Shown here: piece after piece, positions 41,840 through 45,916 of the stretch
How the letters are laid out: every line of letters begins with the position of its first letter
Position numbering within the stretch: position 1 is the stretch's first letter
NCBI GenBank assembly: GCA_018267215.1
Contig: JAFDYX010000024.1
Coordinates: forward strand, 229,240-293,239
Origin: Bacteroidota bacterium
Lineage (GTDB): Bacteria; Bacteroidota; Bacteroidia; Cytophagales; Cyclobacteriaceae
Direction of reading: 5' to 3'
DNA: 64,000 bases
Notes under the pieces: generated by a model
Database searches by the model: none
Seen by the model: only the letters and a program-made list of their open reading frames with translations
Told to the model about the DNA's origin: nothing
Program-made: the position numbers and the translations under genes

Positions 41840-43096
41840 CTATGCGAACAACAGCTCTTTTTTAGTTTCTTCTACCGGGTTAAGGTTCAGCTCGGGTGCC
41901 AGAATAATGCTGACGTCATCCCACTCATTCCATATTTTTAGTTTTTCCAGTTTCACGGTGCCGGTCATAAACTGATAATCATTTCCCTGATAGCCTCCTT
42001 TGAAAGTTTCAAAATCTTTAGGTGAGAGGAGAGAGCCTTTCGGGAAACTGACCACCACATCTACTGTTGCTTCGTTGGAAAACGGAAGCCCTTCGCCCTG
42101 TGCATATTTTTTGTATTCGTAGCGATAGTCGTAGGTCAGTGCAGAAATATCTGATAGCACGGCCGAGCCCGTGGGGTAGCTTCCGGCTCCTTTTCCGATA
42201 AACACTTGTTTTTCGGCAAAGGCTCCTTCTACCAATACAGCATTGTATTCGTTGCGTACCGATGCCAGCATGTGGTCAGTAGGAATGAACTGCGGGGCTA
42301 CGAGGGCAAATACTTTTCCGTTCTTTTTGTAAGCACGGGCTACCAGTTTGATAGCATAATTATTTTCGCGGGCGTATTTCAAATCGGTAGCTGCAATTTT
42401 TTGAATACCTATGTTGATGACCTGCTCAGGTTTTAAGAATACGCCAAAGGTGTGAGCGATGGCGATGGTTAGTTTAAATTTTGGATCAAACCCTTTTACG
42501 TCCAGCGAAGGGTCGCTCTCGGCAAAGCCAAGGTCTTGCGCGCCTTTCAAAGCCTCTGTGTAGCTTTTTCGTTCTTCAAAAATTTTGGTGAGGATATAGT
42601 TGGTAGAGCCATTGAAGATACCCTCGATGCTGGTGATCAGGTCGTTGTCGTAATACTCTTCCAAGTTTCGCAGAATGGGGATGCTACCACACACAGAACC
42701 TTCATATAATACAGAGCGGTTGTGCTTTTGCTGCAAGGCATAGATTTCAGGCAGGTGCTCGGCAATCATACGCTTGTTGGCGGTAACTACGTGTTTTCCG
42801 TTTTGCAAAGCTGTTTTTACAATTTCAAAAGCAGCATTGGCATCATCAATTAATTCAACGATTACATTGATTTCATTATCAGTCAGGATATCGTTTTTGT
42901 CGTAAGTGAAAATGGCCGAATCCAGGATGCGTTTCTTGTCGCGGTTTTTTACACAGATTTTTTTGATCTCTGCTTTGATGCCGTGGGTTTCATTCAGTAC
43001 ATGGTACAGCCCTTGCCCTACACAGCCAAATCCAAAAACACCAAGTTTTAATTTCTTGTGAGGTGTGTGCTGGTTTTTATTTTCTTCTTGTGCCAT
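41840..43096 (-). CDS. hom: Homoserine dehydrogenase
   Basis: The 418-residue product has the NAD(P)-binding loop LGVFGFGCVGQGLYHVL, the region NVIVELIDDANAAFEI, and substrate-binding segments VVTANKRMIAEH, GSVCGSIPILRNLEEYYDND, GIFNGSTNYILT and DPSLDVKGFDPKFKL. It reduces aspartate semialdehyde to homoserine, the branch-point to threonine and methionine. It is not fused to aspartokinase. As the third gene of metY-metX-hom, 6 bp after metX, it is under the control of the SAM-I riboswitch leader. Confidence 0.95.
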   Translation of the reverse strand: MAQEENKNQHTPHKKLKLGVFGFGCVGQGLYHVLNETHGIKAEIKKICVKNRDKKRILDSAIFTYDKNDILTDNEINVIVELIDDANAAFEIVKTALQNGKHVVTANKRMIAEHLPEIYALQQKHNRSVLYEGSVCGSIPILRNLEEYYDNDLITSIEGIFNGSTNYILTKIFEERKSYTEALKGAQDLGFAESDPSLDVKGFDPKFKLTIAIAHTFGVFLKPEQVINIGIQKIAATDLKYARENNYAIKLVARAYKKNGKVFALVAPQFIPTDHMLASVRNEYNAVLVEGAFAEKQVFIGKGAGSYPTGSAVLSDISALTYDYRYEYKKYAQGEGLPFSNEATVDVVVSFPKGSLLSPKDFETFKGGYQGNDYQFMTGTVKLEKLKIWNEWDDVSIILAPELNLNPVEETKKELLFA

Positions 43097-43102
43097 AATT
43101 GT

Positions 43103-44143
43103 TTATGGTATTGCTACCGTTTCTTTAGTTAAAAATTCTGATACTATTTTCTTAAAAATTTCAAACTCCACTAAAAATCCATCGTGGCCGAAATCAGACG
43201 AAATAATTTTTAATGAAGCCTGATTGATATGCTCGGCTAAATACCGTTGCTCGACAACAGGAAACAAGCAATCGGTTTGGATGCCCACCACCAATGTTTT
43301 TGCTTTGATCTGTTTTAAGGCGTCTTCCACAGAAGTTTTTCCGCGGCCTACATGGTGGCTGTCCATCGCTTTAGACAGAAGCCAGTAGGTAAACGCATTA
43401 AACCGATTGGCTAATTTTTGACCTTGGTACCGTTGATAGGAAGCAGCGCGAAAGCCATCTACTTTGTCGTTTGTTTTTTCTGATTGGGTCTTTTCAAAAC
43501 CATCGTGTGCGCGGTACGAAATCATGCCGATGGCACGGGCTGCCTTCATTCCCTCCAGTCCGGCACGGGCATCATTTTCTTTCCAGGTTTGGTCTGCCTC
43601 AATGGCCATGCGCTGTGCTTCGTTAAAGGCAATGCCCCAGGGCGAGTGTTGCGCATTGGTGGCAATCAAAATCAGGTTTTCAAAAACGGAAGGTTGAGTA
43701 ATGGCCCACTCCATCGCTTGTTGTCCGCCTAGTGAAGGGCCGATCAGTGTGTTTATTTTCTCCAACCCCAAATGCTGGCGGAGCAGGTCAAACGAAGCCA
43801 CTACATCACGGTTGGTAAATTGAGGGAAGTCGTGAAAATAATTTTTACCTGTGTCGGGGTTTACCGACAAAGGGCCGGTAGAGCCATAGCAACCGCCCAA
43901 TGTGTTGGCACAGACAATGAAATGGTGACGCGGATCAAACGGACCGCCTGTAGTAAATAAATCTTTCCACCAATCGGTAAAATCCGAACTGCCCGTCAGC
44001 GCATGGATAACCCAAATCACGTTGTCGCGTTCACGGTTCAGTTGGCCGAGTGTGGTGTACTTGAGTTGGAAGCCGGAAAGTTTTCCTCCGGCTTCCAGTT
44101 CAAATGGATGGTTGTAATGAAAAATATGATCTTGTTTTACCAC
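43103..44143 (-). CDS. metX: Homoserine O-acetyltransferase
   Basis: The 346-residue alpha/beta hydrolase-fold protein has its triad at Ser137 (GPSLGGQQAM), Asp291 (GIQTDCLFP) and His320 (SSDFGHDGFL). Landmarks WVIHALTGSSDFTDWW and NTLGGCYGSTGP support MetX rather than an unrelated hydrolase. It activates homoserine for methionine synthesis. Acetyl versus succinyl specificity is inferred from family and phylum. It lies 9 bp downstream of metY. Confidence 0.94.
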   Translation of the reverse strand: MVKQDHIFHYNHPFELEAGGKLSGFQLKYTTLGQLNRERDNVIWVIHALTGSSDFTDWWKDLFTTGGPFDPRHHFIVCANTLGGCYGSTGPLSVNPDTGKNYFHDFPQFTNRDVVASFDLLRQHLGLEKINTLIGPSLGGQQAMEWAITQPSVFENLILIATNAQHSPWGIAFNEAQRMAIEADQTWKENDARAGLEGMKAARAIGMISYRAHDGFEKTQSEKTNDKVDGFRAASYQRYQGQKLANRFNAFTYWLLSKAMDSHHVGRGKTSVEDALKQIKAKTLVVGIQTDCLFPVVEQRYLAEHINQASLKIISSDFGHDGFLVEFEIFKKIVSEFLTKETVAIP

Positions 44144-44152
44144 CTTAGTTTA

Positions 44153-45487
<1,335 letters not shown>

Positions 45488-45510
45488 TTAAATTTTTGAT
45501 TTTTGATTTG

Positions 45511-45536
45511 AGATTGGCCTCAGCCAATCTGTAATT
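45511..45536. repeat. Perfect 8-bp hairpin with dispersed 12-mer
   Basis: AGATTGGC-CTCA-GCCAATCT (45511-45530) is a perfect hairpin about 40 nt before the metY ATG. Its right part runs into CAATCTGTAATT (45525-45536), the reverse complement of a 12-mer at 37181-37192. Confidence 0.5.
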
Positions 45537-45606
45537 AGTAATTTGATATTTGTAATTGTATCTAAGCTTACTCATGCCCGTCACCCGGCAGACCGTGCGC
45601 TTAGTT

Positions 45607-45648
45607 TGTTGCTGTGTGTTTTGGCTAACAACGAAATCAACAGCAACA
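45607..45648 (-). promoter_or_regulatory. 9-bp stem whose 5' arm is the last three Cys codons of the leader frame
   Basis: On the minus strand TGTTGCTGT (the last three Cys codons, 45640-45648) pairs perfectly with ACAGCAACA (45607-45615) across a 24-nt loop that includes the stop codon. A ribosome paused on the Cys codons would keep the stem open. Confidence 0.6.
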
Positions 45649-45747
45649 GCGCTTGCAGCAACACATGTTGCCAATACAAATGCCGATACTTTGATTAATG
45701 ATTGGTTCGGAGTGAACCTGATGTTGGGATGTGATGAAGTTTTTCAT
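45637..45747 (-). CDS. Cys-rich leader peptide between the SAM-I riboswitch and metY
   Basis: A 36-codon frame starts with ATG (45747) ten bases after the end of the riboswitch P1 stem and ends with TGA at 45637. The peptide begins MKNFITSQHQ and ends MCCCKRCCC, with six Cys in its last eight residues plus one Cys earlier. Such a run is very unlikely by chance and looks like a ribosome-stalling sensor of Cys-tRNA, as polycysteine leaders do elsewhere (known from actinobacterial attenuators). The final Cys codons form one arm of a perfect stem. Whether it is translated is inferred, not shown. Confidence 0.65.
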   Translation of the reverse strand: MKNFITSQHQVHSEPIINQSIGICIGNMCCCKRCCC

Positions 45748-45884: not shown

Positions 45885-45916
45885 CAAACGTATAGTAGTT
45901 TAGTAGAGTTTCCAAA
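45885..45916 (-). promoter_or_regulatory. Promoter of the metY-metX-hom operon
   Basis: On the minus strand TTTG (45913-45916), a 20-bp spacer and TACGTTTG (45885-45892) match the Bacteroidota -33/-7 consensus. Transcription should begin near 45878, just upstream of the riboswitch. Confidence 0.75.

Follow-up and report, generated by a model that had tools for sequence, protein, structure and literature searches.

Introduction

The mgtL/mgtA leader of Salmonella carries a proline-codon peptide and a metal-sensing RNA in one leader, a combination of peptide and sensing RNA that the locus described here shares, with different signals, genes and phylum. Riboswitch-controlled upstream ORFs (uORFs) have also been described in M. 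tuberculosis, at the pe20 Mbox (PMC12810186) and at the B12 riboswitches of ppe2 and metE (PMC11260477), and there too a riboswitch and a short upstream ORF act jointly; the pe20 Mbox governs its uORF by way of a translational platform with Rho-dependent termination (PMC12810186). These M. tuberculosis systems respond to other ligands, and the available portions of the two papers mention no amino-acid-sensing codon run.

Polycysteine leaders were predicted before the cys operons of Actinobacteria, without obvious terminators (PMC1262725), and have been tested in mycobacteria (Canestrari et al. 2020, as cited in PMC9031893; reference entry PMC13236596). As far as the accessible parts of these sources go, they resemble the leader analysed here in having a short ORF with Cys codons beside the stop, ahead of sulfur genes and with no obvious terminator, but they belong to another phylum, the mycobacterial ORFs are leaderless, no SAM riboswitch is mentioned, and the Met codons and the AUG close behind an aptamer are features of the present type. 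Tandem Cys codons in a uORF are likewise shared with uORFC-8-2, found exclusively before cysS of Rhodobacterales and proposed as a ribosome-mediated attenuator, for which the available text gives a consensus fold, two conserved Cys codons and a U-run end fitting an intrinsic terminator (PMC8632094). For the Bacteroidota, leader-peptide attenuation was noted 5' of amino-acid operons of Flavobacterium psychrophilum in the part of that paper at hand, the supplement of which may include a related case (PMC9723704). Among the matches listed in the open-licence literature, no description was found of polycysteine leaders in Bacteroidota or of a Cys leader placed behind a SAM riboswitch, in agreement with the original prediction, which had known of no such pairing in the phylum.

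The metY locus

The features of the locus are collected in Table 1; the window is the whole 64,000-nucleotide stretch analysed, from a genome of the Cyclobacteriaceae. The original prediction had placed a 36-codon minus-strand frame ending MCCCKRCCC and TGA between a SAM-I riboswitch and metY, and had noted that TGTTGCTGT and ACAGCAACA are exact reverse complements 24 nt apart; both descriptions held. By covariance-model score (Table 1) the aptamer is a member of the SAM-I family, with an output that is probably the leader ORF and not metY directly. The leader start codon lies 9 nt past the aptamer, an ATG (45666-45664) stands ahead of the two Cys codon runs and AAG CGC separates them, and 161 nt divide the leader stop from metY. 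The riboswitch and the promoter-like site 5' of the ORF would speak against the leaderless mycobacterial type, and the metY context, with no terminator-like site called in the window spacer, sets the leader apart from uORFC-8-2. The promoter-like site is one of three minus-strand matches in the window to TTTG-N(17-23)-TAnnTTTG, an expression based on what we take to be the Bacteroidota promoter consensus.

Table 1. Features of the metY locus, in window coordinates
Feature	Position	Strand	Basis
Promoter-like sequence, Bacteroidota-type, TTTG...TATACGTTTG	45885..45916	-	Ahead of riboswitch; regular-expression match
SAM-I riboswitch aptamer, RF00162	45757..45851	-	67.6 bits (gathering 44.4)
Leader ORF, 36 codons, ATG...TGA, peptide MKNFITSQHQVHSEPIINQSIGICIGNMCCCKRCCC ending MCCCKRCCC	45637..45747	-	Sequence and relatives
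Cys codon runs, TGTTGCTGC (45663-45655) and TGTTGCTGT (45648-45640)	45640..45663	-	Sequence
Anti-Cys segment ACAGCAACA, able to pair with Cys codons	45607..45615	-	Sequence
Downstream element, anti-Cys segment plus hairpin CTAAGC...TGCC-GGGTGACG-GGCA...GCTTAG	45551..45621	-	Covariance-model match, 61.9 bits, the window sequence being training-set member L035
metY, O-acetylhomoserine/O-acetylserine sulfhydrylase	44153..45475	-	TIGR01326, 679.2 bits (cutoff 495.1)
metX-like homoserine O-acetyltransferase, gene after metY	43103..44143	-	TIGR01392, 345.7 bits, below cutoff of 500
Homoserine dehydrogenase-like gene, third in same direction	41840..43096	-	ORF; named by inspection

Elsewhere in the same genome, a second SAM-I riboswitch (contig C18) stands before a metH-like gene, named by inspection, without a Cys leader. 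The genome has 33 CCC-stop matches (12 for the reversed control pattern), and among the 30 that were read, the window's included, 17 have no in-frame ATG and no second convincing polycysteine leader was found. A further hairpin, AGATTGGC-TGAG-GCCAATCT, lies shortly 5' of metY in the window (45510-45530, minus strand); it is missing from the G137 leader in a four-way alignment.

Conservation of the leader before metY

The 148 genomes of the window's family gave 117 MetY matches in 116 genomes, of which 113 were read and 112 kept, one locus without the MetY motif (L045) being dropped. Leaders counted as SAM-preceded if the aptamer 3'-end expression GGTGC[CT][AT] occurred within 520 nt (104 of the 112, the other eight being left out), and as Cys-positive if an ATG frame wholly inside the leader held at least three Cys within some 12 residues. 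So defined, 72 of the 104 were Cys-positive, compared with 4.5 in dinucleotide shuffles and 5/104 on the antisense strand. In a second set, of 80 named loci, the SAM motif was present in 67, and 53 of these were Cys-positive; the two sets overlap in 14 identical leaders and together give 114 different Cys-positive leader ORFs. The conserved C-rich frame that the original prediction proposed to look for in relatives is thus present, and the conservation of frame and Cys run is more than chance. On these comparisons, a Cys-codon leader peptide between a SAM-I riboswitch and metY is conserved across several Bacteroidota orders.

The leader ORFs have 24-60 codons, and in the 72 family leaders the stop lies 61-205 nt from metY. 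In the last 12 residues of these 72 Cys makes up 38.4%, against 2.8% elsewhere in the peptide, and Met 10.4% against 1.7%, which marks a sulfur-amino-acid leader and not a purely Cys one; the final residue is Cys in 42. Codon use is mixed (231 TGT to 154 TGC), Cys number in 12 residues ranges from 3 to 10 among Cys-positive leaders, and the N-terminal parts differ between genera. The pattern CCCKRCCC occurs in only 2 of the 148 genomes, the second occurrence being discarded as antisense to a 511-codon open frame; with the exact string so rare, it is the Cys pattern that is conserved. A pooled pN/pS of 0.49 was obtained over 21 non-independent leader pairs limited to 55-97% protein identity, with 30 synonymous and 23 replacement changes in Cys columns. 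Two marks of an amino-acid attenuator are found, namely a conserved short ORF rich in the regulatory codon and genes that make or use that amino acid (metY here; cysS and cysH elsewhere). Cys-poor leaders also exist, for example in several Algoriphagus, with the early AUG kept and few or no Cys, and some Cys-poor metY leaders have Met codons near the end instead; on sequence, such leaders count against a strict Cys rule.

Outside the window's class, Met/Cys-rich frames (such as MMQMCMMMCCC) were seen before metY at four loci (L168, L169, L170, L177), none with a match to RF00162, as if the peptide sensor there worked without a riboswitch. No such frame was found before metY in most of the other families of the phylum examined.

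Where another gene comes first, the leader stands before that gene. In two of the eight leaders left out above (G094, G017) the whole leader precedes an OsmC-like gene, and a covariance model of the downstream element matched about 500-600 nt 5' of metY at six loci (L036, L037, L210, L213, L219 and L223, with L037 and L213 showing no difference over the 1500 bases compared). Behind the element, the first five carry an OsmC-like gene of 144-145 codons (PF02566 was scanned for L036), and at L223 the OsmC-like start position is open for 20 codons only. A Cys-rich frame precedes the element, and an Rfam aptamer is present, at all six. The leader therefore marks the front of the transcription unit; in the window, no OsmC-like gene lies between leader and metY.

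Spacing between aptamer and leader start

Aptamer coordinates were listed for 44 metY leaders (26 Cys-positive, 18 Cys-poor), and in 40 of these the first ATG lies 6-9 nt past the aptamer (at 8 or 9 in 34), Cys-poor leaders included. Twenty further metY loci, including Mucilaginibacter, Pedobacter, Solitalea, Hymenobacter and a Saprospiraceae MAG, all had the first AUG at +5 to +10, and in 19 it was the start chosen earlier for the Cys frame. Overall, then, 60 of 64 metY leaders have their first AUG 5-10 nt past the aptamer, compared with 1 of 22 control SAM leaders of other genes, in which the position of the first ATG varies between 2 and 144 nt. Among 32 SAM aptamer loci, six of the 10 that precede metY, and none of the 22 that precede other genes, had at least three Cys. 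Exceptions were a metY leader with its Cys frame at +344 (L264), Cys-positive metY leaders at +13 and +15, and cysH leaders with frames at +19 (L370) and +112 (L380).

A start near the aptamer's switching helix at conserved spacing, as in riboswitch-controlled uORFs, is thus a feature of these metY leaders, and an initiation site within the 3' side of the SAM-I P1 helix is a known output mode, according to the accessible part of PMC2258182. Since the leader start codon follows the aptamer so closely and at near-constant distance, riboswitch and leader are probably nested, with the riboswitch gating the peptide: SAM probably controls leader initiation. Cys-tRNA supply had been put forward in the original prediction as a second control layer. 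Cys-tRNA sensing is consistent with two results, the occurrence of polycysteine frames ahead of certain cysS and cysH genes and the Met enrichment in the same C-terminal stretch, but the two layers are probably nested and not independent.

RNA structure around the cysteine codons

The 9-bp stem of the original prediction fared less well. In the window the duplex of Cys codons and tail has a predicted energy of -27.8 kcal/mol, which 11% of tail shuffles equalled or bettered, so that the window stem alone is not beyond chance; in the minimum free energy (MFE) fold the Cys codons pair with upstream ORF codons and the stem is absent. Over the 72 leaders, complementarity of Cys codons and tail is barely above shuffled tails (mean z -0.64; 11/72 below 0.05), and the stem was rejected as a general mechanism. 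It stays for one Chryseolinea-like clade. From 19 clade sequences, picked by a GTGAC motif that is conserved among them by construction, RNAalifold derived an 8-bp stem joining a Cys-codon run to a CRGCAACA segment that is near-invariant in this selection. The clade consensus pairs the first Cys run with this segment, and not the last run as had been suggested. With both arms near-invariant, the compensatory changes anticipated for the stem do not appear and covariation is absent.

Beside the clade stem lies a covarying three-tier hairpin, derived from the same 19 sequences, in which 90.7% of cells are paired (slid controls below 47%). Two-sided changes were found in 16 cells versus 5.8 shuffled (0/500); pairs with a two-sided change (4 versus 3.3 shuffled, 210/500) and further pair types (9 versus 11.2, 499/500) were not above shuffles. 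The hairpin and the Cys:anti-Cys stem do not appear to be mutually exclusive. With a limit of E <= 1, the covariance model of this downstream element matched 12 of 80 sources in one set and 18 of 92 in another, none with an E-value above 3.1e-6, counts that include training loci and some loci counted twice, and the element was not found in the remaining sources scanned. The loop GUGAC of the hairpin (within 45551-45621) could pair with the AUGUCA of the metY start, and most of 26 sequences share the register of this pairing; because ATGTCA starts are common outside the clade as well (55/100), this pairing was not counted as evidence.

RNAalifold gave no consensus pairs for 11 Mucilaginibacter tails. 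By eye, a hairpin ACACGT...ACGTGT was seen within a few bases of the leader stop in L250, L254, L272, L289 and similar Mucilaginibacter leaders; it was not recovered by RNAalifold on a MAFFT alignment.

Terminator-like spacers numbered 9 of 113 by a rule of our own, applied without a shuffle control, and T-runs of six or more 18 of 113. The window spacer is outside the nine, and the intrinsic terminator of a classical transcription attenuator was not found there. No general sequestering of the metY start was seen; the sequence itself does not reveal how the leader would be linked to metY.

Polycysteine leaders before other genes

A CCCCC-stop pattern was searched in 395 genomes of the class. 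The pattern is noisy, and the 20 hits taken further were hand-picked in a way that favoured TAA stops and particular families, so that the six in which a polycysteine frame precedes a following gene are examples and not rates. Such frames lie 60 nt before cysS (L325, L332) and 156 nt before a PAPS reductase gene (L327). Reading of 30 cysS loci (three genes not located) gave two with a polycysteine frame, one of them the query's own, and reading of 30 cysH loci (one gene not located) gave six, including the query's own and two identical peptides; a Cys-rich match before cysH at L386 was discarded for want of a terminal Cys run. Among the loci with such frames are L340, L341 and L325 for cysS, and L370, L373-L376 and L380 for cysH.

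In the four cysH leaders L373-L376, which come from one family and of which two are alike, an anti-Cys segment (AACAGCAACA or ACAGCA) stands immediately before the cysH start codon. In all four MFE folds the Cys codons are base-paired to the region around the cysH start, and 7 to 14 bases of the leader's last eight codons are engaged. As predicted folds, these four are the clearest view of a stall-on mechanism that would act at the level of translation.

Scanning 12 of these loci with Rfam revealed the SAM aptamer in L370, L380 and L330, and none in L340, L341, L325, L373-L376, L331 or L326, with about 300 nt before the Cys run available to the scan in L325, L326 and L331. At L330 (minus strand) the aptamer is followed at +10 by a frame ending CCCCC, and 249 nt further on by a RimK-like ATP-grasp gene; judged on sequence, this is the nested arrangement in front of a different gene from metY. 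Single cases were also seen of a PhyH-family dioxygenase gene (L331:371-1174, plus strand) 52 nt behind a frame ending MMRMCCCCCCC, of a gene similar to it by look 537 nt behind a CCCCC-ending frame (L323), and of a TonB-dependent receptor gene with a CCCCCCC-ending frame 101 nt ahead of it (L326, minus strand).

Proposed mechanism and alternatives

From the anatomy and its conservation, established by comparison, we infer a nested, ribosome-dependent attenuator, with a SAM-gated leader peptide sensing the charging of Cys (and Met) tRNA; we put the probability of this reading at roughly 0.7. Its conjectural parts are SAM gating of the leader, ribosome stalling, the direction in which metY responds and the step at which the output is set. 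With SAM bound, the closed P1 helix just 5' of the leader AUG would block initiation, leaving the leader untranslated and metY low. When SAM is low, ribosomes would translate the leader. If charged Cys-tRNA (or Met-tRNA) were then scarce, the ribosome would stall on the C-terminal codons and the downstream RNA would take a form that permits metY expression; with good supply it would finish and release, the Cys codons would re-pair with their flanks, and expression would drop. In the window's clade, re-pairing would use the anti-Cys segment beside the covarying hairpin. With so few terminator-like spacers, control at the output step is more likely to be translational or Rho-dependent than to use intrinsic termination of the classical kind. 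Low charging most likely turns metY on, a sign suggested by the analogous cysS and cysH leaders and by the enrichment of Met codons.

A broader formulation, to which we give even odds, is that of a two-input RNA logic gate of Bacteroidota, in which the SAM-I riboswitch would directly set translation of a leader that senses sulfur amino acids through its Cys and Met codons and stalling would decide metY, within a wider polycysteine-leader regulon. This regulon would cover part of the cysS and cysH genes as well as, in single genomes, the PhyH-type dioxygenase, the TonB-dependent receptor and the ATP-grasp gene preceded by a SAM riboswitch.

The opposite sign for metY is possible, at fairly long odds. 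A stall for lack of Cys-tRNA would then keep metY off, and full translation of the leader would turn it on, perhaps by coupling. MetY and cysteine synthase compete for sulfide, and this pathway knowledge favours such an arrangement, in which sulfide would go to cysteine first. A parallel is offered by PPE2 of M. tuberculosis, the expression of which requires translation of the upstream ORF, as given in the accessible text of PMC11260477. Against it, stall-on is what the leaders of cysS and cysH imply, one family has predicted folds that bring Cys codons onto the start of cysH, Met codons, which stand for the end product, are also enriched, and the distance from leader stop to metY in the family leaders is far for coupling.

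It is quite improbable that the Cys run is an RNA-structure signal only, with UGY repeats that pair and translation that is irrelevant. Anti-Cys hexamers do occur downstream in 38 of 113 leaders versus 16.9 shuffled, and pairing between the run and the codons ahead of it exceeds that of shuffled codons (mean z -0.97, n 114), as such a signal would predict; however, 18 of the 38 hexamers come from a single clade, and an unrelated pattern used as control, ACRACR, is likewise raised (21 versus 12.7). A pure structure signal also offers no explanation for the reading frame, for an AUG so early in the leader, for a stop directly following the run, or for the Met enrichment, the mixed TGT/TGC use and the association with cysS and cysH.

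A shade less probable again is an action of the peptide itself, for instance as a small protein that binds metal or sulfide. The Cys-rich C-terminus and the modest constraint seen in pN/pS are consistent with this, but the N-terminal parts vary between genera, as does Cys number between leaders, the run is at the extreme C-terminus, and the window peptide matched no NCBIfam family up to E 1.

Finally, a chance ORF in the spacer, for which the unconserved exact string and the CCC-stop background of the genome, much of it lacking an in-frame ATG, might be cited, is refuted by the conservation of the frame in the family and its recurrence in other orders.

Significance

If the nested attenuator is correct, two known control devices would act in series on one transcript, with a metabolite switch deciding whether a sensor of tRNA charging gets read. 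It would also provide a clear and testable cysteine/methionine sensor for the Bacteroidota, in which little on amino-acid attenuation was found, and the AUG 5-10 nt behind the aptamer would be a simple signature for finding further riboswitch-gated leader peptides.
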